Source of the DNA: a virus
Virus record (IMG/VR): IMGVR_UViG_3300007512_000101
Location: 1 to 37,479 of that record
Reading direction: 5' to 3' (one strand)
Length of the DNA stretch: 37,479 bases
Shown here: positions 262-36,782 of the stretch, piece by piece
Numbering within the stretch: position 1 is the stretch's first letter
Layout: every line of letters begins with the position of its first letter
Position numbers and translations under genes: made by a program
The notes under the pieces: model-generated
The model's database searches: none
What the model was told of the DNA's origin: nothing
What the model saw: only the letters and a program-made list of their open reading frames with translations

Positions 262-1316
262 ACGTCATCTACAACGAGATAGACCCGTTCGCGGTCAAGT
301 GGCTGGGTGAGTTGGTCAGCCGGGGCCACATCGCGCAAGGGAGCATACACAGTGAGTCAGTCGAAGACATCGAGCCCGAGTCCCTTGCAGGGGTCACTCA
401 ATTTCACACCTTCGCAGGAATCGGCGTGTGGTCCTACGCGCTCAGGCTCGCCGGCTGGCCCGACGACCGACCTGTTTGGACCGGAAGCTGCCCCTGTCAG
501 CCGTTCTCTGTCGCCGGCAGAAGCAAAGGCGCAGACGATGCGCGCCATCTCTGGCCCGCTTGGTTCACCCTCATTGAGCAGTGTCGCCCTTCAACGATCT
601 TTGGCGAACAAGTTATCTCTGAGGATGGCAGGCTGTGGTTCGACGCTGTATCGGCTGACCTGGAAGAACTGGGTTACACCGTCGCAGCGGCTGATCTGTG
701 CGCTGCGGGCGTCGGTGCGCCGCACATCCGACAACGGCTGTTCTGGGTGGCCCACACCGAAGACAACAGACTCGCACGGGTCAAAGATACCGCCGAACAG
801 AAGGGGCGGTCACGGGTTGCATACGGTGGCCCAGATGTCGGGCTGGCCCACACCACAGCACAGGGACAGCAAGGGAGCGCCGGGCGCAGGAGCGACGGAA
901 CGGGGCGGATTCGGGGCGAGCCTGCCGAGAACGGCGGGTCTGGCTGGGTGGCCCACGCCAAACGCGAGGGATCACAAGGACACCGGGCCCAATGTGGATT
1001 GGGAGAAGGTAGCCGCGCGTTCCAAACTGGCAGGGGTGGCCCATATGACGGACGGAGCAAGCGCCAGAACGGTGACTGTCAACAGCCTGTTAGGGCGTCA
1101 GGTGTGGCTAGCGATGGATCAGGCGCAGTACGTGGATTCTGGTCAGACGCCGAATGGGTCTACTGCCGAGACGGCGTCCAACGGCCGTTTGAACCCGGCA
1201 CACTCCCGCTGGTTGATGGGACTCCCGCCCGAGTGGGACGTCTTCGGGGATACGGAAACGCTATCGTAGCTCCGCTCGCCGCGATGTTTATCGAGACGGT
1301 CATGGAGCTGCTGTGA
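258..1316 (+). CDS. DNA (cytosine-5) methyltransferase
   Basis: This is a 352-residue m5C methyltransferase. Motif I (TFAGIG) is near residue 50. Motif IV SCPCQPFS has the catalytic Cys near residue 80. A GEQV variant of motif VI is near 115, IRQRLFWVA (motif VIII) near 157-165, and RLRGYGNAIVAPLAAMFI at the C-terminus corresponds to motifs IX/X. Between about residues 165 and 290 the sequence is polar and low in complexity, with recurring VAH or LAH segments, and a second frame is open over the same DNA. The TTG at 258 overlaps the resolvase stop and gives the usual phage N-terminus (NVIYNEIDPF); an ATG at 219 is the alternative. No cognate endonuclease is adjacent, so it is probably an anti-restriction or self-marking enzyme. 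Confidence 0.93.
   Translation: MNVIYNEIDPFAVKWLGELVSRGHIAQGSIHSESVEDIEPESLAGVTQFHTFAGIGVWSYALRLAGWPDDRPVWTGSCPCQPFSVAGRSKGADDARHLWPAWFTLIEQCRPSTIFGEQVISEDGRLWFDAVSADLEELGYTVAAADLCAAGVGAPHIRQRLFWVAHTEDNRLARVKDTAEQKGRSRVAYGGPDVGLAHTTAQGQQGSAGRRSDGTGRIRGEPAENGGSGWVAHAKREGSQGHRAQCGLGEGSRAFQTGRGGPYDGRSKRQNGDCQQPVRASGVASDGSGAVRGFWSDAEWVYCRDGVQRPFEPGTLPLVDGTPARVGRLRGYGNAIVAPLAAMFIETVMELL
352..1269 (+). CDS. Long alternate-frame ORF embedded in the cytosine methyltransferase gene
   Basis: A second plus-strand frame stays open over most of the methyltransferase. The GTG at 352 has an AAGGGAG Shine-Dalgarno at 337-343, eight bases upstream; a GTG at 307 is a longer option. The 305-residue product is rich in Ser, Thr, Pro and Arg. 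It has three evenly spaced GWPTP motifs (Trp codons at 748, 844 and 949), each followed by a D(S/H)(H/K) patch, and ends in SRWLMGLPPEWD. From memory, proteins with GWPTP repeats and a similar C-terminus are often annotated over or beside phage cytosine methylases, which suggests genuine overprinting; I could not run a search. The function is unknown. The alternative is a chance ORF caused by the codon bias of the main frame. Confidence 0.5.
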   Translation: MSQSKTSSPSPLQGSLNFTPSQESACGPTRSGSPAGPTTDLFGPEAAPVSRSLSPAEAKAQTMRAISGPLGSPSLSSVALQRSLANKLSLRMAGCGSTLYRLTWKNWVTPSQRLICALRASVRRTSDNGCSGWPTPKTTDSHGSKIPPNRRGGHGLHTVAQMSGWPTPQHRDSKGAPGAGATERGGFGASLPRTAGLAGWPTPNARDHKDTGPNVDWEKVAARSKLAGVAHMTDGASARTVTVNSLLGRQVWLAMDQAQYVDSGQTPNGSTAETASNGRLNPAHSRWLMGLPPEWDVFGDTETLS

Positions 1317-1397: not shown

Positions 1398-1664
1398 ATG
1401 CCTGAGAGAGACTTTACCACACAGGGACGCAGATTCACTCACCCTGTCATGGGTCATGGGGACATTCACCCGGACGGCGACAAGGTGACGTTTCAGGAGT
1501 CCGCCAACGGACCAGACCGCATGGAGGCCATGGCCCGCGTCTGTGCGTCATGGGCACCATCGGTGGTCGCTCAGGACGGGAGCGTTTCCATGGCTCACCT
1601 ACCCTGTCACTCGTACGTCATGGCACACGTCGCCCTGGAGCACTGCACGGAGGTGACGCCGTGA
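1398..1664 (+). CDS. Small hypothetical protein, 88 aa
   Basis: I do not recognise this 88-residue protein. ATG 1398 is chosen over an upstream TTG at 1323 because GGAG stands nine bases before it and because the upstream codons overlap the predicted promoter and leader hairpin. The sequence contains several His and Cys residues (GHGDIHPDGD, CASW, PCHSY, EHC), so metal binding is possible but no known motif is complete. Its stop overlaps the GTG start of the ERF gene, placing it first in the recombination operon. Confidence 0.7.
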   Translation: MPERDFTTQGRRFTHPVMGHGDIHPDGDKVTFQESANGPDRMEAMARVCASWAPSVVAQDGSVSMAHLPCHSYVMAHVALEHCTEVTP

Positions 1665-2269
1665 TTACCACCAGCGACCCCTCAGACGCCGTCTGCGCCG
1701 CTCATGTCAAGGCGTGTGCTGCGGCAGGCAAGGTAAGCAAGGGACGGAAGGGCCAGACGGGCAACCAGCGGTATGAGTACGCGAATATTTCTGACGTTCT
1801 GGTGGCGCTCCATGATGCACTGAAAGGCGCTGGTCTAAGCGTTGTGCAGTCGGTCGACGTTCAGACCATGTATACCCGTGTGGTCCATGAGTCGGGGCAG
1901 TGGATGCAGACGACCATGCCGATTCACATCGGGGAGTCCGGGCGCATGAAGGGTGCTAAATTGTGGGGTTCCGCCCTTACTTACCATCGGCGTTACGCGC
2001 TCCTAGCGCTCATGGGAATGGCTGCAGAGGACGACGACGGCAAAGCGGCGAGTCAGGGTCGGCAAGGCAACGACACCCCGTCACAAGCCATGCGCATCAG
2101 CGAGGCACAGGTCAACCGCATCATCGGGTTAGCAAAGCAACTCGGAGACGACACAGCAACGCTACACCGCAAGGTCAAAGAGGATTGGGGCTGTGAGTTG
2201 GCGTACCTGCACACTCGCGATGCTGCGAGCCTGATTACGACCCTTCAAGGGCTGGTGGACGGGCTATGA
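1661..2269 (+). CDS. erf: ERF-family single-strand annealing protein
   Basis: This is a 202-residue recombination mediator of the ERF type, which anneals complementary single strands during phage recombination and genome circularisation. The family pattern is visible: RYEYANISDVLVALHDALK near residues 30-48, then a GSALTYHRRYALLALMG segment near 105-121, followed by an acidic AEDDDG patch. The C-terminal helical region (SEAQVNRIIGLAKQLG) resembles the variable tail of these proteins. The GTG start at 1661 has a GGAGG Shine-Dalgarno and overlaps the previous stop. It sits just upstream of the PP-loop and YqaJ exonuclease genes, giving a Red-like exonuclease plus annealase pair. Confidence 0.85.
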   Translation: MITTSDPSDAVCAAHVKACAAAGKVSKGRKGQTGNQRYEYANISDVLVALHDALKGAGLSVVQSVDVQTMYTRVVHESGQWMQTTMPIHIGESGRMKGAKLWGSALTYHRRYALLALMGMAAEDDDGKAASQGRQGNDTPSQAMRISEAQVNRIIGLAKQLGDDTATLHRKVKEDWGCELAYLHTRDAASLITTLQGLVDGL

Positions 2270-3120
2270 AAGGTGACGAGTTACGCCAATATATGAGTTT
2301 CGGCGGCGGTGTGCAGAGCACAGCAATCGCGATGCTGGCGATCAATCGCGATGAACGACTGTTGCGCGTGACCGGCGGTGTGGTGCCTGAGTTGTACCTG
2401 TTTGCGGACACTGGCGATGAACCGCGCAGCGTGTACGATAACGTGCAATACGTGCGCGGCCTGCTGCTGGAGGTCGGGGCTGGCTTCAAGACCGTTAACC
2501 GACACGATGCGCCGCTGAGCAAGCACGTGTTGGACCTGGCCGAACAGGGCAAGCGGGGTATCAGCCTGCCGCCGTTCTTTGTGGAAAGCGACACTACACC
2601 CATGCCCGTGCGGCGCGGCTGCACGCGCGACTTCAAAGGGCGTGAACTCGACAAGGCGGCGCGGCTGCACTTCGGCTGCAAAGTCAAGGGTGCGCTGACG
2701 GCCCGTCAGTGGCTAGGTATGAGCCTGGACGAAGTGTCACGCATGCGCACGTCTAAGGAATCATGGCGTGAAACGTTCTATCCGCTCGTGGAGATGGGTT
2801 GGCGGCGCGGTAAGTGCATGTCGTACCTCGCAAGCGAGGGGATGACCATGGTGCAGCGTAGCGCCTGCGTGTTCTGCCCGTTCCGAAGCAACATCGAATG
2901 GCAGCGCTTGCGCGACATCGATCGCGATGGCTTCGTTGCCGCTGTGCAGTTTGAGCGCGACGTGCACGCCGCATGGGATAAGCACGGCACTGTCGCAGGA
3001 CTGAAGACGCGCCCATACCTACACCGAAGCCGTATACCGCTTGATCAGGTGGACTTTACTGGAGGTCAGATGGGCCTGTTCGACTGGAACAATGAGTGCG
3101 ACGGGGTGTGTGGAGTATGA
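2266..3120 (+). CDS. PAPS-reductase-like PP-loop protein
   Basis: This 284-residue protein belongs to the PAPS reductase/N-type ATP pyrophosphatase superfamily. The N-terminal SFGGGVQST (about residues 11-19) is the PP-loop that binds ATP pyrophosphate, followed by LYLFADTGDEP as in family members. Cysteines occur in RRGCTRDFK, in KCMSYLA and in a C-terminal ACVFCPF, which could hold an Fe-S cluster or zinc. The ECGLH redox motif of true PAPS reductases is not seen, so classical sulfate reduction is doubtful; sulfur or nucleotide modification is an alternative. It lies between the annealase and exonuclease genes with ATGA overlaps on both sides, suggesting a role tied to DNA or RNA processing. 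Confidence 0.82.
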   Translation: MKGDELRQYMSFGGGVQSTAIAMLAINRDERLLRVTGGVVPELYLFADTGDEPRSVYDNVQYVRGLLLEVGAGFKTVNRHDAPLSKHVLDLAEQGKRGISLPPFFVESDTTPMPVRRGCTRDFKGRELDKAARLHFGCKVKGALTARQWLGMSLDEVSRMRTSKESWRETFYPLVEMGWRRGKCMSYLASEGMTMVQRSACVFCPFRSNIEWQRLRDIDRDGFVAAVQFERDVHAAWDKHGTVAGLKTRPYLHRSRIPLDQVDFTGGQMGLFDWNNECDGVCGV

Positions 3121-4109
3121 CCGACCGCGAACAGTGGCTACAGTGGCGCAAGAAGGGCATCGGCGCATCCGACATCCCGATAATCATGGGCATGACGTCG
3201 TGGTCGTCTCCTACGCAGTTGTGGCGGGAGAAGCGCGGCGAGGGCGACTCAGACGAGCCTACAGACCGGATGATATTCGGGATTGAGGCAGAGGACGCCG
3301 TATCTCGCATGGTGGCGGCGCGCATGAACTGGGAGTTGGACACGTCCGAGGGCACAGAGCACCCTGAGCACCCTGAGCACCGATGCACACCTGACCGTAT
3401 CCGCATCGTGGCCCCTGGAACGGCCTTGATGTCGACGTTGACTGCCACGCCCAGGCTGGACCGCGAGCTCGTGGAGATCAAAATCTGCTGGCAGGACTAC
3501 CACAAGCACTGGGGCGATGAAGGGCCGGCCATCCCGCACAAGCAACCCGGCGGCAACGTCCCGGCCCACTACCACGCCCAGGTCAACTGGCAGTTGTACG
3601 TCACAGGGCTTCAGAAGGGCTGGCTCGCAGGCATGATCTGCGGCGACCTGAAGGTGTACCCCGTCGAACGCGATCCGGCGCTTATCGCGGTGATGGTCCA
3701 ATACGCTAACGACTTCTGGGAGTGCGTACAGACCGGCAAACAGCCGTGGGACCCGACAGAGAACCGCAGCAAAGAACTGACGCAGCAACACCCACAAGCC
3801 ACGGAAGACACCCCGCTGAACCTGCCAGACCTCGAGGACGCTGCAAGGGCTTACAGCGAAGCATCGGACGACTTCACAGTCGCGAAGAAACGCAAGCAGG
3901 CGGCGAGGAACGAGCTACAGGCGGCGATGGGTGACCACAGCAAGGCTAACGCAGGGGCGTATAAGGTCGCCTGGAGCAACCGAAAGGGCCGCGTGACCCT
4001 CGACTCCAAGCGCCTGAAAGAAGACCACCCGGCGCTATACGAGGAATACACGAAGGTCAGCCCGCCCACGAGGGCGATGCGCGTGACCCCTCCGAAGGTG
4101 CTACCATGA
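3117..4109 (+). CDS. YqaJ-type (lambda exonuclease-like) recombinase nuclease
   Basis: This is a 330-residue PD-(D/E)XK exonuclease of the YqaJ family, partner of the ERF protein in double-strand-end recombination. It begins with WLQWRKKGIGASDIPIIMG (GIGASD near residues 14-19), followed by FGIEAEDAV near 53-61. The catalytic segment LVEIKICW (EIK near 120-122) comes next, then the Gln motif HYHAQVNWQLYVTG near 152-165. The C-terminal third is helical and charged. The ATG at 3117 overlaps the upstream stop in an ATGA junction. Confidence 0.88.
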   Translation: MTDREQWLQWRKKGIGASDIPIIMGMTSWSSPTQLWREKRGEGDSDEPTDRMIFGIEAEDAVSRMVAARMNWELDTSEGTEHPEHPEHRCTPDRIRIVAPGTALMSTLTATPRLDRELVEIKICWQDYHKHWGDEGPAIPHKQPGGNVPAHYHAQVNWQLYVTGLQKGWLAGMICGDLKVYPVERDPALIAVMVQYANDFWECVQTGKQPWDPTENRSKELTQQHPQATEDTPLNLPDLEDAARAYSEASDDFTVAKKRKQAARNELQAAMGDHSKANAGAYKVAWSNRKGRVTLDSKRLKEDHPALYEEYTKVSPPTRAMRVTPPKVLP

Positions 4110-9140: not shown

Positions 9141-10688
9141 ATGGCACACCCGCTCTCAATCTACCCCACATGGCAGAACGCTCCCGAACTGTGGGAGTCC
9201 ACCGCTAGACGCGTAGTTGTTCAGGGCTTCGAGTTGGCTAAGCAGAACGCCGACCTGGACCGCAGGGCGCTACAACAGGCGTTACACGGCTTCTTAGACG
9301 GCGACCACCGATCCGAATTGGAAGCGCGGCTAGCGGAGTTGTACCCGAAGACCGCTCCAGCGTGGAACAGCAACGAGGCGGGGCATCGGTACTTCCCGCT
9401 CGTGTCGATGTACGCCGACCGGCTGAGCGTCGTCTTTCACAGAGAGCCCGAGACGTTCATCGTCGGCCCCGATGGTCAGCGACTGCCCGACACCCACCCG
9501 CAGCAGCTCCAGTGGAAGTCGGACCGTAAAGCGCTGAACCTGGGCATCACGCTTCAGACGGTGGAGCGCTGGATCAACAGCGGCATGCGCCAAGTCCTTC
9601 TAAGCCCGTGTATCCGAAAGGACCGCATCAAGTGGGAGGTCATCGCGCCTTATCAGGCGTACGTCACCCAGGACGTCGAGGAACCCGGAGAGATTGAAGG
9701 TGCGGAGCTCGTGCAGATTTCGCTCCCCCAGCCTAACGACTCTCACGGCAATCAGGTTGAAGACCTCCTGCTGACGTGGCAGCGGGTGGACGTCCGAGAC
9801 GAGCGCGGGGTTATCTCGGGTACGCAGTGGTTCACGTGGCTGCACGAAGAATCCGGGGTCCTGAAGCAGAACCCGCTGTTTGCCGACAACGTCAACCGCT
9901 ACGGTCTTCACCCGTTCAGCGTATGGCGCGATGGTCCGGTGGCACCGGGTGACTTCTGGTTGGACCCGAAGAAGGGCTGGTATCATCAGCAACTGGCGAC
10001 CGACATCAAATTTTGTGACATGGACCACCATCTGCGCCACCAGATCCACAGCACACGGCTTGTGAGGGGTGTCACCGATGCGAAGGTCCTAGAGCACGGA
10101 CCCGACGTCAGCATCACCACCATGGAGACAGACGCATCGGTAGAGTTCTCGACACCGGACCCACGAATCAACCTGTTGATTGACGCCATCAACTTCGATC
10201 TACGGGCTAGCGCGGTGGCGGAAAATCTCCCCGCCGACACATTTGAAGCCAGATCTTCGACCAGAAACCTCGCCGCGAAACAACTCGAACAGGCAGCGTT
10301 GGAGGTACGCCGAGAGAGGGTTGTGCCTTTCTACCTCACGGCCTTAGAACGGACATTCGAGATCCACAAACGGGTTAGCAACTACTGGGCATCGAGCCTG
10401 AAGCGCACCCGCTACGACGAAGGCGTTACGTTGGGAGTCGAGTTAGCGCCGATTCCGAAAGTCGTGGACCGCTTCCAGGACACGCAAGCGAACACCGTGG
10501 ACATCCAGCACAACATCACAAGCCCCGTCGATGTGGTCATGCGCCGAGAGGGCGTCACCCGTAGCGAGGCAGAACGACGACTGGAAGCGCGTAAGGCCGA
10601 CAACGAACGGTTTGGCGCTAAACGCGAGTCATTCTCTGAGAGCGCTGCCGGCGAGGGCGTCTCGCGTCCTGCTAGCGTAGAGGACTAA
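9141..10688 (+). CDS. Portal protein
   Basis: This 515-residue protein sits after the terminase and before the scaffold and capsid genes, the expected place and size for the portal that forms the dodecameric DNA channel. It has a mixed N-terminal region, an acidic and aromatic middle (FSVWRDGPVAPGDFWLD), a helical stretch with AAKQLEQAALEVRRERVVPFYLTAL near residues 375-400 that could be the crown or stem helix, and a charged C-terminal tail (VTRSEAERRLEARKADNERF). Individual motifs of a named portal family are not obvious to me. Confidence 0.82.
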   Translation: MAHPLSIYPTWQNAPELWESTARRVVVQGFELAKQNADLDRRALQQALHGFLDGDHRSELEARLAELYPKTAPAWNSNEAGHRYFPLVSMYADRLSVVFHREPETFIVGPDGQRLPDTHPQQLQWKSDRKALNLGITLQTVERWINSGMRQVLLSPCIRKDRIKWEVIAPYQAYVTQDVEEPGEIEGAELVQISLPQPNDSHGNQVEDLLLTWQRVDVRDERGVISGTQWFTWLHEESGVLKQNPLFADNVNRYGLHPFSVWRDGPVAPGDFWLDPKKGWYHQQLATDIKFCDMDHHLRHQIHSTRLVRGVTDAKVLEHGPDVSITTMETDASVEFSTPDPRINLLIDAINFDLRASAVAENLPADTFEARSSTRNLAAKQLEQAALEVRRERVVPFYLTALERTFEIHKRVSNYWASSLKRTRYDEGVTLGVELAPIPKVVDRFQDTQANTVDIQHNITSPVDVVMRREGVTRSEAERRLEARKADNERFGAKRESFSESAAGEGVSRPASVED

Positions 10689-17692: not shown

Positions 17693-17943
17693 TAGGGGCC
17701 GCTAAGTGGTCAGGCACCTTCAATGCCATCGACGGATTAGACGTCTGCCCTACCTACCTGATGAATCAGTACGACCCTTGGACCGATGCGGTGGTTGGTT
17801 TGTACAACGACTATGACGCGGGCGTTATCGAAGGGTGGCCGAATGACTACTCGGCCGGGGTGTGTCGTGCGGTAAGATACCTGCGTACGGAGGTAAACCG
17901 TACGGTGAACGAGCTACAAGAGGCGGCGTATGGCGGGCGGTAA
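17560..17943 (+). CDS. -1 frame extension of the tail assembly chaperone
   Basis: The -1 frame is open without a stop from the A9 run to 17943, 127 codons. The distal half reads as real protein: WSGTFNAIDGLDVCPTYLMN followed by an Asp/Tyr/Trp-rich region and a C-terminal helix (TEVNRTVNELQEAAYGG). The first 45 codons overlap the zero-frame tail and look less constrained. There is no ATG, GTG or TTG in this frame before ATG 17761, so the fusion (17090-17943 with one slip) is the likely product; independent translation from 17761 is the alternative. It overlaps the tape measure start by 14 bases. Confidence 0.7.
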   Translation: MLWLIGRQAQWNQRSKGAKGHRDGPRPFDGCNHANEEDGRSCRLVGAAKWSGTFNAIDGLDVCPTYLMNQYDPWTDAVVGLYNDYDAGVIEGWPNDYSAGVCRAVRYLRTEVNRTVNELQEAAYGGR

Positions 17944-19957
17944 AAAGCGGGGACAGGTCGAAGCGCTCATCCGTCTGGTCGGTGAGGACGGGGTAACCAA
18001 ACTCATCGAAGACACGCAGAAGCGCTTGACGGGTCTGGACAAGCAGACCAAGCAGACCGGCAAAAGCACGGACGACATGGGCGTGTCATGGGGCAAGGTA
18101 ACGATGGGCATTGCGGCTGCCGGTGCAGCGGTGGGCGCAGTCGTGCTCGCGGCCAAAGCAGCCAATGACGCCATCCTGTCAGCCGCGCAGGACGACGCGA
18201 TAGCGCGCGGTTTCAACCGTCAGTTCGCACACCCACAACAGTTCCTGATGGAGTTGCGCGAGGCGTCCGCAGGGCTCGCTGACGACCAGTCGCTTCTGAA
18301 GTTCGGAGCGCTCGCTAAGCGTGCTGGGCTCGACATGAAGACCACCAGCCGCCTCTTTGAACTGACAGCCAAAGCGGCCACAGACACCGGGATGGAGTTC
18401 ACAGAGAGCCTAGAGCAAGTTCTTGAGGGCGTCATCGGTCGGTCAAGCGGTTTCTTCGAGGACCGCTTAGGCATGGCGGTTGACTTCGGGCGAGACGTGT
18501 CAGAGGCCAACGCCAAACTGAAAGATCTCGGCGTTGAACTGACGACACAGGAAGAGATAGCACTCGCCACTGAGGTGGCCATCCGTGAGATGGGTAAGCA
18601 GTTTGACAATGTAAAAACAGCGGGTGCGGTAGGTCAGGTGCAGGCGCTGAACACCCAGTTGGCCAACCTGCAGCGCGACGCCAAGCAGGCGGCTGCGGAT
18701 GTGGCCACGACATTCCTGAGGTTGGGCGGCGCGGTGAAGACGAATGCCGATGTGATGAACAGCAACTTCGACGCCACGAAAAAGGTGTTCGACGGCATCA
18801 AGGACCTTAGCAGAGTAACGACAGACTACGACGACCATCTGCAGTCGTTGACCGTAATGATGGAAGACAGCGCGGGCGTGACGATGTCCCTGAAGGGGTT
18901 GATTCAGAAGGAGGCTGAATCCCGTGTCACGCTGGCTGACGCCCTGGGCGACGAAGAGGAGTGGCGTCGCCTGGTTGATATAGAGGTCGTCAAGCTGACC
19001 GCTCACACGGGCCTGCTGTCGCGAGAGATCAAGATTGAAGACCAGGCCCACGCCAGCCTGACCAAGCGGCTGTGGGCCGAGGTCAAGGCTCGTCAGGAAC
19101 TGGCTGGCTCGTTTGATTCGATAGACAAGCCGATTGACGTGGGACTGCTAGGCAAGCCAAAAAGACCTAGAGGCGGCAGGCGGGCGGCGCGGCTAGCAGC
19201 GGCAGCGCAGAAGAGGTCGGAGGAAACGCGCCGCGAGATGGCCGCCCTTTTTGCGCAAGGCCCGGGTGATCACGAACGGCTGGCAGCGAAACAAGCCCAG
19301 GTGGACGCCACACTGAATCAGGCTGAAGCACAAGGCAAGTTGAACGACGCCGAGGTTCGGCTGATTGAGACGCAGATTCAACTGGGTGACTCGTTTGAGG
19401 GCATGTTCACAGGCACAGGCGGCATCGAAGGGTTCGCGTCCGAGATGCTTACCATGGTCGATGCCGTAGACGAGTTCACAAAGGCGGGCCGATCCGCTGG
19501 CGATGCATGGAAGAAAGCCGCGCCGGGTATGGTAGCCGCATCCGCTAAGGTCGCTGCGGGCTTCATAGACGACCAACGCATCCAGGCTATCGTGATGGCC
19601 GCAATCGAGACGGCACACAGCATTGCGTCGTTTGCATCCGGCAACATCAAGGGCGGGGTCATGCACGCAGCAGCCGCTGTCGCGTTCGGCGTGGCAGCGG
19701 CTAAAGCGGGTGGGTCTGCTGGCGCGGGTGCAGGCGGTGGCGCGGCACGGGGCACACCGCAGTCACAGCGCAACACGCTACAGGGCGCACAGCCACCTCC
19801 GGGGCAGGGAGGCGGGACTAACAACATCGTCATCAACATGCGCGGGGCGATGCTTCACGGAGGCAACCAGCAGCAGTTCATCCGCACACTCGGCAAGAAC
19901 CTCGAGGACGAGACACGCCGTCGTAGCGCGGTCAACCCGGAGTTCGCACACGGCTAA
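17930..19957 (+). CDS. Tape measure protein
   Basis: This 675-residue protein sets tail length. It has an N-terminal helical segment (LIEDTQKRLTGLDKQTKQTG), a hydrophobic Gly/Ala stretch near residues 60-85 (GIAAAGAAVGAVVLAAKAAN), extended coiled-coil-like regions rich in Ala, Lys, Glu and Gln, a second Ala/Gly hydrophobic region near 560-605, and a Gly/Gln-rich C-terminus. At about 0.15 nm per residue the tail would be near 100 nm, a standard siphovirus length. Position after the two-frame chaperone confirms it. Confidence 0.9.
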   Translation: MAGGKKRGQVEALIRLVGEDGVTKLIEDTQKRLTGLDKQTKQTGKSTDDMGVSWGKVTMGIAAAGAAVGAVVLAAKAANDAILSAAQDDAIARGFNRQFAHPQQFLMELREASAGLADDQSLLKFGALAKRAGLDMKTTSRLFELTAKAATDTGMEFTESLEQVLEGVIGRSSGFFEDRLGMAVDFGRDVSEANAKLKDLGVELTTQEEIALATEVAIREMGKQFDNVKTAGAVGQVQALNTQLANLQRDAKQAAADVATTFLRLGGAVKTNADVMNSNFDATKKVFDGIKDLSRVTTDYDDHLQSLTVMMEDSAGVTMSLKGLIQKEAESRVTLADALGDEEEWRRLVDIEVVKLTAHTGLLSREIKIEDQAHASLTKRLWAEVKARQELAGSFDSIDKPIDVGLLGKPKRPRGGRRAARLAAAAQKRSEETRREMAALFAQGPGDHERLAAKQAQVDATLNQAEAQGKLNDAEVRLIETQIQLGDSFEGMFTGTGGIEGFASEMLTMVDAVDEFTKAGRSAGDAWKKAAPGMVAASAKVAAGFIDDQRIQAIVMAAIETAHSIASFASGNIKGGVMHAAAAVAFGVAAAKAGGSAGAGAGGGAARGTPQSQRNTLQGAQPPPGQGGGTNNIVINMRGAMLHGGNQQQFIRTLGKNLEDETRRRSAVNPEFAHG

Positions 19958-21739: not shown

Positions 21740-24586
21740 ATGGCTACCACCTTCACGGCAGCAATCGCTAACCCGGATGTCGGTGTTCGGTTCTACCTGT
21801 ACATCGAGGGCATCCCGCACATCTTCATAGACGGTGCAAAGCCTGTAGGCCCTAACAACGGGGCATGGGCCGCTCCCACGTCTGGCGGTCGTTCCTACGC
21901 AATCAAAGAGCACATGCTCGACGTGTCCAACGGCGTCAAGGATGTCGGCCCCGAGATAAGCCGGCGCACGGGCGAAGTCTCTCCGAGTTCGATGACTGTC
22001 ACCCTTCAAGAGAACCGGGCAGGTGACCTCCTGGACATCATGGCCCGCGAGAAGTCGGACGGTGCGCTGACCAACCTCGATACGTCTTTCGGCTACGACA
22101 CCGGCGGCGGGCCTACGACCATCGGCGTAGAGGACACGTCAGACTTCGGCACAGGGGTAACGCTCTACTTCGGGCGGGAAACGATTTACGCCACCGGCAA
22201 GACAGATGCCACGTTCACGGGACTTACCCGCAACCTGTTCGACGTGGACGACGGGGCGTCTAACACCTACGGCGATACAAAGTACGTCCACAACGAAGAC
22301 CTCGCCATCGGGCAGGGCTTCAGCACTATCACCGATTACCCGGCGGTCTGGCATGGCCGACACGTTCGGCTAATAGCGTTCATCGTCGGGCCGGATGGGA
22401 GGGCGTACGATACGGCCTTTGACGGGTCGGCCAGCCGAGAGATATGGCGCGGAATCATCCAGGGCAACCCGCGCCCGTTGAACGACTGGCAGCGGTGGGC
22501 GCTGCGGTGTGTCTCTATCGAGTCGATTCTACAGACCGAGGTGGGTAGGGATTCGGTGCAGGCGCGGCTAATCAAGTACCCCGGCGGGGCCAAGGCTAAC
22601 AATGAAGGATGGAAAGGGGTTGATGGCAACGGGGATGGCATACAGGACGAGATAACCGATGAGTACGCATTCACGTACTACATGGACGACAACACGCGGT
22701 TTCTGGACATTCGCATCTTTGAATACGCCAACGTAACCGACTATGAGAACGGCACCACCAGCGACTATCAAGACCTGACCGGCGCGGATAGAATTGCCCT
22801 GAACCCATCTCCGACTCTTGCCGCTAAGGCTGCTTTCACGGGGGCGTTCAACGACGCAATAGAGACGGCGATTGATGCCGCGTTGACCAATGATGACCTG
22901 AAAGTGCAGTTCGTGTCGCAAGACAATGAGGGGCGCTGGCGTATTCAGGTATGGTCGGAGTCGGGTCGGGTTTACAAGGTACAGTTTCTTTTTGATATCG
23001 CTGGTTCGGTCGGACCGCTTCTGAGTTACTCGGGCAGCCCTGAGATTGACACGTTCGCGATCGATCTGGTCGCTAACGATGAGCCGCTGGCGGTCTACAT
23101 TCACCCTGACTCGCTGGTGATTCCGTTCTATTACGCAGAGTCCGAGGGCATTAACCCCGATACCGCACCAGCGTCTGGGTTCGCGCGCATCGGCAACAGT
23201 GAGGTGGTGGAGTACACAAGCATCACGGACGTCGGCAGTAGCCAGAGCGCCGGTCTGTTTCAGATGAACGTGAAGAAGCGCGGGGCGATGCACACATCCC
23301 GCACCGAGCACAAGGTACGACTGAACCCCGACTGGACCACCGATGCCGAGGACGTGAAGATTATCTTCGGCTACGGCATCGACGGTGACGATCCGATTAC
23401 TGCTGTGTTGAAACTGGCGGTGTCTACGGGCGATGCGTCCCATCACACCACATACGACACGCTGCCTTATGGCATCAGCGCCCCGTTGAACCCTAACCAC
23501 TTCGACATCCCTCAATGGGAGAACGAGATTGACCAGTTGCCTGGACCCATGCAGGCCATCCGCTACTTCAGCAGTAAGACGCAAAGCCTATCAAGCCTGA
23601 TGTCCATGTGGTTCGCGCCGTTCGGCTACTACGTATACGGGGGCGTGAACGCGGACGGTAAGTACCTCATTCAGTTAGGGCAGGTTCTGCCGCCGCTGGA
23701 GTCCGAAGCGAACACCACGGTAGGCACGTCAGTGCTAGACCTGTCAGACCCGGCGCAATACGAAGCGGGCGTTAGTCGGGTGGTCAACCAGATCAAGGTC
23801 AACTACCGATGGGATAACGCCCGAGAGAAACAACTCGAAGACAGCATCACGGTCAACGCCTACGACTCACAACGGGAGTACGGGACCAAGGGCAAACTGA
23901 CGTGGAACATGAAGGGGCTCGGGCTCGACGGCGCTACGGCGGTGGCCATCGCGACCGACGCCGCTTACGGTGCGTTCGCCAGGTTCGCTCGTGTCTACGA
24001 TGTGTTTCGTTTGAGCATGGACCGCACCGGATGGGACATTGAGCCCGGCGATGTAGTTGATCTAACGCTTCCAGGGGCACCCAACACAAGCGGCACACGC
24101 GGGTTTACCAACGTTGAAGCGGTGGTTCTTCAATGCACTAAGACGTACCAGACACCGATGGGCGCGGTTGAAGCGACGGGTGCTGAAGTACTGGTCATTC
24201 TTGAGCCGCATACACGCCAGACAACATACAGCCCATCAGGCAAGGTGGCGTCTAAGAGCGGGTCAGACATCACCTTGGAGGCGAACCACTTCACAAAGTC
24301 CGGGTTCTCTACAGACGCGGCGCACTTTGCTGTGAACGACGTGATAATCGTAATGCAGGCGGGTGACTTCAGCACACGCGAGGTCAAGACAATTCAGAGC
24401 ATCAGCGGCAACGTGCTTAGGCTGAATAGCGCGGTGACGCTTACCGTCGGCACGTCTACGTACATCGTGCCGGATGACTACGCTGCTGTGGTTGCCGACC
24501 AACGTAAGCACGCCTTCATCGCAGACAACTCCGACCCGGCTGTATTGAGTGCACCCGGAGACACTGACGCGTATAACTACATCTAA
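21740..24586 (+). CDS. Large tail hub / tip protein
   Basis: At 948 residues this is the largest gene in the window, directly following the distal tail proteins. Size, position and mixed beta structure fit the tail hub or tail-associated protein of siphoviruses. Segments such as RRTGEVSPSSMTVTLQENRA, a YFGRETIYATGKTD repeat-like region, and YEAGVSRVVNQIKVNYRWDN near the last third suggest a multi-domain baseplate-like hub. No peptidase motif is evident. Starts directly after the preceding TAG. Confidence 0.72.
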   Translation: MATTFTAAIANPDVGVRFYLYIEGIPHIFIDGAKPVGPNNGAWAAPTSGGRSYAIKEHMLDVSNGVKDVGPEISRRTGEVSPSSMTVTLQENRAGDLLDIMAREKSDGALTNLDTSFGYDTGGGPTTIGVEDTSDFGTGVTLYFGRETIYATGKTDATFTGLTRNLFDVDDGASNTYGDTKYVHNEDLAIGQGFSTITDYPAVWHGRHVRLIAFIVGPDGRAYDTAFDGSASREIWRGIIQGNPRPLNDWQRWALRCVSIESILQTEVGRDSVQARLIKYPGGAKANNEGWKGVDGNGDGIQDEITDEYAFTYYMDDNTRFLDIRIFEYANVTDYENGTTSDYQDLTGADRIALNPSPTLAAKAAFTGAFNDAIETAIDAALTNDDLKVQFVSQDNEGRWRIQVWSESGRVYKVQFLFDIAGSVGPLLSYSGSPEIDTFAIDLVANDEPLAVYIHPDSLVIPFYYAESEGINPDTAPASGFARIGNSEVVEYTSITDVGSSQSAGLFQMNVKKRGAMHTSRTEHKVRLNPDWTTDAEDVKIIFGYGIDGDDPITAVLKLAVSTGDASHHTTYDTLPYGISAPLNPNHFDIPQWENEIDQLPGPMQAIRYFSSKTQSLSSLMSMWFAPFGYYVYGGVNADGKYLIQLGQVLPPLESEANTTVGTSVLDLSDPAQYEAGVSRVVNQIKVNYRWDNAREKQLEDSITVNAYDSQREYGTKGKLTWNMKGLGLDGATAVAIATDAAYGAFARFARVYDVFRLSMDRTGWDIEPGDVVDLTLPGAPNTSGTRGFTNVEAVVLQCTKTYQTPMGAVEATGAEVLVILEPHTRQTTYSPSGKVASKSGSDITLEANHFTKSGFSTDAAHFAVNDVIIVMQAGDFSTREVKTIQSISGNVLRLNSAVTLTVGTSTYIVPDDYAAVVADQRKHAFIADNSDPAVLSAPGDTDAYNYI

Positions 24587-35498: not shown

Positions 35499-35511
35499 GC
35501 GCTGTCGGATG

Positions 35512-35553
35512 TGGTAGAATGGATGCGCGCGGGGGAGGCAACCCCCGCAGCGC
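35512..35553 (+). promoter_or_regulatory. Extended -10 promoter with strong 5' stem-loop
   Basis: TGG-TAGAAT (35512-35520) is followed at once by a stem-loop: GCGGGGG 35529-35535 pairs with CCCCCGC 35542-35548, loop of six, and an outer GCGC pair (35525-35528 with 35550-35553) extends it past one bulged A. GGAGG then precedes ATG 35580. This is the strongest leader structure in the window. Confidence 0.55.
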
Positions 35554-35579
35554 AACACAGCGCCTACAACGGAGGCACC

Positions 35580-36782
35580 ATGCAAGACAACTATAGCACC
35601 GTTCTACCTATCGCCAGCATTCGCCTGGACGGCGGCACCCAACCCCGAGCATGTATGGACGCGGCTATCATGGCTGAATATGCGTCTGAGTTCGAGACAG
35701 GCGTTGCACTGCCACCAGTGGCGGTGTTCTTCGACGGCGAGGACCACTGGTTAGCGGACGGCTTTCACCGTCTCGGCGCGGCTAAAGCGGCAGGGCTGGA
35801 GACGATAGACGCGACCGTGAAGCAAGGTAGCCGTCGTGACGCGGTACTCTACAGCGTTGGGGCCAACGCTGAGCATGGTCTACGACGGACCAACGCGGAC
35901 AAACGGCGGGCTGTGGAGACGTTGCTCCGGGACCCGGAGTGGTCCCAGTGGTCTAACCGGGAGATAGCGCGACAGTGCGCGGTAAGCGAAGGAAGCGTTC
36001 GCAACGCGATCGTATCGCTATCTGCGCAACTTACGCAGATAGAAACGCCCCGGAAGGTCACGCGCAACGGCACTACCTACGACATGGACACCGCTGGGAT
36101 TGGTAAGCCTGTAGAGGCTGAACCGCAACTATTTGACGCGCCGAGTCATCCGCGTGTGGTTGCTGGCGAGGCTGACATTCTGGAGGCCGCAAAGCAGATA
36201 CGTGACGCCAAAGCGCAGACTCGCAGGGCTGAACGGGTCGAAGCCCTGAACAAGATTGAAGAAGGCAACGCGCCGATGCCTGTCGGGTCGTACCATGTGA
36301 TCTACGCTGACCCACCATGGCGCTATGAGCATGTCAAGACGGCCAGTAGGGCCATAGAGAATCACTATCCGACCATGACGCTAGAGGACATCTGCGCCCT
36401 GCCTGTGGGCAATCTGGCTCACGAGGACGCCGTTTTGTTTATGTGGGCGACATCGCCGAAGTTGGCCGAGTCCATGAGGGTCATCACGGATTGGGGGTTC
36501 ACCTATCGGACCTGCCTCGTGTGGGTCAAGGACCGCATAGGAATGGGTTACTACGCCCGCCAGCGCCACGAACTGTTGCTGGTCGCAGCTCGTGGTTCCC
36601 TCCCTGTCCCTGAGCCCGCTACACGCCGTGATTCGGTCATCACAGCACCCCGCGACGAGCACAGCGCAAAACCCGACGAAGCCTACGAGGCCATCGAGGC
36701 CATGTACCCCGGCATCAGCCGGATTGAGTTGTTCTGCCGGCGACCTCGTGACGGCTGGTCCGCCTGGGGGAACCAGGTATGA
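35580..36782 (+). CDS. ParB-like domain fused to MT-A70 adenine methyltransferase
   Basis: This 400-residue protein has an N-terminal ParB-like nuclease/CTPase-fold domain, with WLADGFHRLGAAKAAG near residues 57-72, and an HTH-like part (WSNREIARQCAVSEGSVRNA near 122-141). A second half is an MT-A70 methyltransferase with DPPW at 244-247, then ENHYPTMTLEDI, VLFMWATSPKLAESM and RHELLLVAARG. It probably methylates adenine N6 and protects phage DNA from restriction; the ParB domain may give site or partner specificity. ATG 35580 has GGAGG upstream. Confidence 0.88.
   Translation: MQDNYSTVLPIASIRLDGGTQPRACMDAAIMAEYASEFETGVALPPVAVFFDGEDHWLADGFHRLGAAKAAGLETIDATVKQGSRRDAVLYSVGANAEHGLRRTNADKRRAVETLLRDPEWSQWSNREIARQCAVSEGSVRNAIVSLSAQLTQIETPRKVTRNGTTYDMDTAGIGKPVEAEPQLFDAPSHPRVVAGEADILEAAKQIRDAKAQTRRAERVEALNKIEEGNAPMPVGSYHVIYADPPWRYEHVKTASRAIENHYPTMTLEDICALPVGNLAHEDAVLFMWATSPKLAESMRVITDWGFTYRTCLVWVKDRIGMGYYARQRHELLLVAARGSLPVPEPATRRDSVITAPRDEHSAKPDEAYEAIEAMYPGISRIELFCRRPRDGWSAWGNQV

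Follow-up and report, generated by a model that had tools for sequence, protein, structure and literature searches.

The DNA analyzed in this study, referred to as the window, is a virus record of 37,479 bases with a methylase gene, designated alpha, at its left end. The open alpha frame spans nt 3 to 1316. Its start is most likely the TTG at 258, which overlaps the stop codon of the upstream gene, and an ATG at 219 is a possible alternative. Alpha is a cytosine-5 methyltransferase by its PF00145 score of 60 bits against a cut-off of 22. The alpha family profile also matches the PDB sequences of M.HhaI and M.HaeIII, and the P-C-Q of catalytic motif IV is invariant in the alphas. A second frame, designated beta, lies inside this gene. 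The +1 frame has no stop codon from nt 283 until the one at 1267-1269, and the GTG at 352-354 gives exactly 305 codons. The earlier note had described a 305-codon frame within the methylase gene with its own ribosome site, three GWPTP motifs and a patterned C-terminus, and each of these is real: AAGGGAG lies at 337-343, eight bases before the GTG, the GWPTP motifs are found at nt 745, 841 and 946, and SRWLMGLPPEWD is present at the C-terminus. Beta had no match among the Pfam and NCBIfam models. The features of the locus, all on the + strand, are listed below.

258 to 1316, + strand: alpha, cytosine-5 DNA methyltransferase catalytic subunit (phrog_363); PF00145 3.4e-16, phrog_363 1.1e-75
270 to 377, + strand: alpha motifs II and III, ahead of motif I (YNEIDPFAVKWL ... 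ESVEDIEP); from profile alignment to L005
337 to 343, + strand: Shine-Dalgarno-like site for beta, AAGGGAG, read directly, 8 bases upstream of GTG 352
352 to 1269, + strand: beta, +1-frame product (phrog_1008), 305 aa, GTG start, proposed target-recognition and motif IX subunit; phrog_1008 3.4e-39, conservation tests, fusion to alpha in single-chain relatives
352 to 744, + strand: beta N-terminal region; lies over alpha motifs III-VIII and includes the one part of beta that is predicted well; invariant G27, G96 and W104
405 to 434, + strand: alpha motif I (HTFAGIGVWS)
486 to 509, + strand: alpha motif IV with the catalytic Cys (SCPCQPFS); invariant P-C-Q
714 to 758, + strand: alpha motif VIII (GAPHIRQRLFWVAHT)
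745 to 840, + strand: beta cassette 1 (GWPTPKTTDSHGSK...); GWPTP motif, module analysis
798 to 1118, + strand: alpha linker read across the beta cassettes, predicted disordered; pLDDT < 50, alpha identity equal to third-frame identity
841 to 945, + strand: beta cassette 2 (GWPTPQHRDSKGAP...); GWPTP motif, module analysis
946 to 1140, + strand: beta cassette 3 (GWPTPNARDHKDTGPNVDWEKVAARSKLAGVAHM...) plus the linker after it; relatives in L383 and L386
1183 to 1239, + strand: beta motif IX-like segment GRLNPAHSRWLMGLPPEWD; near-invariant in beta, alpha fourfold sites frozen here
1245 to 1292, + strand: alpha motif X (RGYGNAIVAPLAAMFI); G-N-A invariant in 65 alphas

The motif order of alpha at 270-509 is permuted to II-III-I-IV, with motif I inserted between III and IV. 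Methylase L005 was the reference for the canonical order, by profile alignment.

The open frame could be a by-product of base composition or of the alpha codons. High G+C DNA favors long open frames, and chance openness is high in some single loci; for example, the +1 frame of L251 is open in 60% of shuffles. In the window alone it stays open in 2.5% of the shuffles of alpha's synonymous codons. The test was applied to a sample of 80 viral loci, which were fetched with conserved alpha peptides only and are independent of beta. Loci chosen by the beta motif were omitted from the openness and synonymous tests to avoid circularity, and PACT201 (L025) was excluded for frameshifts in all frames, which are probably sequencing errors. 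In 71 of the 74 usable loci, the window among them, no stop interrupts the +1 frame from motif I to motif X, and shuffling alpha's synonymous codons gives an expected count of 4.7; not one of the 74 has an open third frame. The earlier note had named stops in the alternate frame of homologues as an observation that would count against dual coding, and almost none were found. The reciprocal test used beta-selected loci, in which alpha is stop-free through 118 of 119 cassette arrays, while shuffling the beta codons predicts 16. All 173 alpha-beta pairs are in the +1 register, as are 73 of 73 in the wider family.

Synonymous change in the methylase frame is depressed over beta, as the earlier note had proposed should be checked. 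Codon identity at identical residues was computed over 38 non-redundant alpha-selected loci, with the expectation taken from codon usage. In the alpha-only N-terminus it is 0.435, close to the expected 0.394. Over motifs I-VIII it is 0.574 against 0.372, and over the C-terminus it is 0.727 against 0.348, both far above expectation. The fourfold sites of alpha are nearly fixed over the LNPAHSRWLMG segment of beta (e.g., 33/33 CCC and 37/37 GTT) and become variable again from about nt 1254.

The region between motif VIII of alpha (to 758) and its C-terminal block (from about 1137) is of low complexity, as the earlier note had observed. Here the constraint was assessed with a frame-blind control, in which pairs of cassettes were matched by nucleotide similarity regardless of frame. 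All 909 of the resulting alignments are in the beta register. In pairs at 60-80% nucleotide identity, the identity of beta is 0.72-0.83, that of alpha 0.36-0.48 and that of the third frame 0.38-0.50, and the differences are concentrated at beta third codon positions. Alpha is conserved no better in the GWPTP region than a non-coding frame. Motifs I-VIII and the C-terminal block are therefore constrained in both frames and the GWPTP repeats between them in beta only, which agrees with the suggestion that the low complexity of alpha reflects constraint by the other frame. The low-complexity linker of alpha is thus in effect the shadow of beta. AlphaFold assigns pLDDT < 50 to alpha residues 181-287, in agreement with disorder in the cassette region. 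The openness and synonymous-site tests refute the by-product explanation, the frame-blind and reciprocal tests also count against it, and it retains almost no credibility. Dual coding of alpha and beta is strongly supported.

In the homologues, beta most commonly starts at an ATG that precedes motif I by about 15 codons and has a GGAG upstream. The GTG in the window lies five codons earlier than this usual start and has its own Shine-Dalgarno-like site. At the usual start, 78 of 159 loci have GGAG within alpha Arg-Ser codons, compared with 32 of 279 elsewhere, a difference whose significance is inflated by shared descent. Notably, the rare Arg codon AGG is used there in 50 of 159 loci, whereas it makes up 0.076 of Arg codons elsewhere. 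These positions bear on the possibility that programmed ribosomal frameshifting from alpha produces one fused chain and that beta is not initiated independently. In its favor, there are relatives that carry these parts in the same order on a single chain (below), so that a fused chain could in principle function. However, beta is conserved well upstream of motif VIII (invariant G27, G96 and W104), a region which a late frameshift would skip, GGAG is enriched at the usual beta start, and the shifted GTG of the window carries its own site. Frameshifting is accordingly considered very unlikely.

The beta frames carry 1-6 units of about 30-40 residues, each starting with GWPTP or a similar motif, across 178 loci, in one of which no unit was recognized; the counts are approximate because 19 loci contain an extra NWVTP-like match. 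Single-linkage clustering merged nearly all cassettes, and tight clustering was adopted instead, which gave 31 cassette types with at least 4 members. Because tight clustering selects on beta similarity, the frame-blind control described above was run. Most types occupy several slots, in phages with diverged alphas, and their order is shuffled. For example, cassette 3 of the window (NARDHKDTGPNVDWEKVAARSKLAGVAHM) has 72% identity over 29 residues to a cassette in L383, and its relatives are recognizable in L004, L005 and L386, whose alphas differ in motif order. The relative in L386 is an in-frame part of a single-chain methylase. From their sequences, the GWPTP repeats are read as exchangeable cassettes. 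Their modularity and their reshuffling from phage to phage make it probable that each recognizes a target of its own, and the array suggests a multispecific enzyme whose activity and specificity are both predicted.

No motif IX-like segment was found between motifs VIII and X on reading the translation of alpha, and PF00145 covers only profile positions 66-173 of 324 in alpha. Alpha is therefore not of the monomeric kind, in which motif IX stands in the same chain. Beta, on the other chain, ends in a motif IX-like segment, LNPAHSRWLMGLPPEW. Its WLMGLPPEW aligns over 16 residues to L005, which itself matches DRM2-type enzymes at E 0.05-0.24. With modest confidence, based on its position in single-chain relatives and this short similarity, WLMGLPPEW may be identified as motif IX. 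Structure prediction added little: the AlphaFold model of beta alone has a mean pLDDT of 57.6 and is mostly of low confidence, and its residues 75-122 form a predicted helix and two strands, with pLDDT block means of 75-90 at 81-120. Neither the beta profile (at E up to 10) nor the C-terminal 30 residues of beta matched any PDB chain sequence, and a structure search with the mostly low-confidence model gave Z up to 3.0 for segment 70-129 and no meaningful fold match.

The relatives of this locus place the same parts in one chain or in two. First, contig L386 and mycobacteriophage Girafales gp77 carry motifs I-VIII, cassettes, a WMMG(L/W)P segment and motif X in a single frame. In PHROGs, an independent library, Girafales gp77 matches phrog_363 at residues 1-219 and phrog_1008 at residues 390-580 (9e-80), L386 likewise shows both families in one chain, and in both proteins the phrog_1008 part sits between methylase motifs VIII and X. 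The beta of the window aligns to residues 142-339 of L386 with 50 bits, against 38 bits for the best decoy of any of the sequences compared, and alpha also scores above shuffled decoys when aligned to L386. L386 and L391 carry tandem modules in frame after motif VIII and before motif IX, and in these single chains a motif IX-like segment stands just ahead of motif X. Secondly, Gordonia phage Upyo and Arthrobacter phage Andrew have two methylase genes, overlapping or adjacent, of which the second has the cassettes, motif IX and motif X. Third, L005, L382-L384 and L388-L390 have motif IX in the frame of alpha and the cassettes in +1. Lastly, the split seen in the window occurs in L004, in Paenibacillus phage Diva, in C72C1 and in 73 of the 73 classifiable contigs of L269-L348. 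Thus, there are at least four ways in which one enzyme has been split across frames. In L386 (472-1590) and L391 (385-2130) the cassettes are in frame, yet part of the beta N-terminal region is open in +1, at 743-1018 and 725-1228, respectively; these stretches are possibly a relic or a separate product.

The single-chain methylases are homologous to beta, which makes beta the probable specificity and motif IX half of the methylase itself. Judged by position and homology, beta most likely supplies target recognition and motif IX to a cytosine-5 methyltransferase made of two chains. The earlier note had taken beta for the uncharacterized product of an overprinted gene in an anti-restriction locus, and an accessory protein of that kind is not supported by this homology. 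The products of fully nested overprinted genes are usually unrelated, and this, together with the lack of a Pfam or NCBIfam match, would favor a separate protein (an anti-restriction factor, a regulator or a toxin) that overprints the methylase by happenstance. However, the beta family is found in frame in single-chain methylases and in second methylase genes that carry motif X, and alpha has no motif IX. A separate accessory protein is therefore very unlikely.

We propose that the overlapping frames of this locus specify the two chains of a single cytosine-5 DNA methyltransferase, with the cassettes and motif IX of beta giving specificity, and we place the probability of this reading at about 0.88. 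What the sequences show is conservation of both frames, homology between beta and the stretch of the single-chain enzymes that holds the cassettes and motif IX, and modularity of the cassettes. From this we infer that beta is translated, that a complex forms and is active, that each cassette has one target and that the phage is protected from host restriction. The alpha chain would provide motifs I-VIII, for cofactor binding and catalysis, together with motif X, and has no motif IX. The beta chain, initiated independently at GTG 352, would provide its N-terminal region, three GWPTP cassettes and motif IX. Both would be translated from one message and assemble into one enzyme, in which alpha would flip and methylate the cytosine and the cassettes of beta would form the target-recognition part, held by motif IX. 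Each cassette would probably read its own target, giving several targets as in the multispecific Bacillus phage methylases. The likely use would be shielding of phage DNA from host restriction, and a putative anti-restriction role is plausible for a phage methylase.

A narrower version of the two-subunit reading holds that only one cassette, or none, is a specificity element and that the other repeats are spacers. The number of cassettes ranges from 1 to 6 and their target specificity is a prediction, which leaves room for spacers. However, in the beta frame the cassettes remain under purifying selection, and they are swapped as whole units; on balance we regard the spacer version as possible and rather unlikely. 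Returning to the proposed enzyme with one target per cassette, we lean toward a wider statement, in which a large family of phage methylases would keep its specificity array and motif IX in a second frame, would be retargeted by shuffling cassettes that are open in both frames, and would show at least four divisions between frames.

Several known systems resemble this arrangement. The small polypeptide of M.EcoHK31I is reportedly read from an alternative frame inside the gene of the large subunit, and in the window the small chain does lie in an overlapping frame of the large chain's gene. According to PMC3404938, which cites Lee, Kam and Shaw 1995, M.EcoHK31I (YGGCCR) is a two-polypeptide cytosine-5 methyltransferase with motifs I-VIII and X in the large subunit and motif IX in the small polypeptide, and the predicted TRD is placed in the large subunit. 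Compared by description, the split in the window is the same, with motifs I-VIII and X on the large chain and IX on the small. Unlike the small polypeptide as described, however, the beta of the window also bears a shuffled array of cassettes, and the II-III-I-IV motif order of alpha sets the locus apart. A plasmid search for an EcoHK31I-like restriction-modification context returned 1 partial match with the L004 beta and 13 records with the window beta. One product, in L024, is named 'Mte8-like', which is only a lead to M.EcoHK31I-type kinship.

The multispecific Bacillus phage methyltransferases are single chains in one frame. According to PMC8936443, which cites the primary work, the phage-borne enzymes of SPR, SPbeta, phi3T, rho11 and H2 are cytosine-5 methyltransferases with multiple tandem target-recognition domains. 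The likeness to the window lies in the several tandem modules between motifs VIII and IX, whereas the window carries its array in trans, on a chain read from an overprinted frame, with a specificity that is predicted. M.AquI is a two-subunit cytosine-5 methyltransferase with its catalytic and specificity halves on separate chains (PMC3404938). Motif X is in the small subunit of M.AquI and in alpha in the window, and the actinophages Upyo and Andrew share the M.AquI split.

Dual coding has already been noticed in one phage group, and the beta family is already in PHROGs. In the GenBank record of Paenibacillus phage Diva, the beta-family gene DIVA_50 (L379 808-1512) is annotated as 'g49 internal gene' inside the methylase gene. 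This internal gene and phrog_1008 belong to the same beta family, which is listed as DNA methyltransferase or hypothetical protein and with no mechanism. Among open-licence papers, none was found that describes the beta family as overprinted specificity subunits or the shuffling of its cassettes. Under the present reading, a widespread family with no match in Pfam or NCBIfam acquires a probable function; its genes are often omitted by genome annotators because they are nested inside another gene. If it is true, hundreds of phage methylases can be read as two-chain enzymes with their specificity in an unannotated frame, and the locus is a case of overprinting in which the two products are halves of one enzyme and the modular evolution of the overprinted gene is visible. 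If, in addition, cassettes and targets correspond one-to-one, the resistance of a phage to host restriction would become predictable from its sequence.

Elsewhere in the window, three long genes (9141-10688, 17930-19957 and 21740-24586) had no PHROGs match at E 0.001, and the phage seems distant from those described so far. An Erf-like annealing protein, a phosphoadenosine phosphosulfate reductase-like protein and a RecE-like exonuclease are encoded one after another at 1550-4109, a short way downstream of the methylase gene. A second methyltransferase gene, at 35511-36782, combines a ParB-like N-terminus (phrog_1033) with a DNA methyltransferase domain (phrog_359, 5.7e-68).
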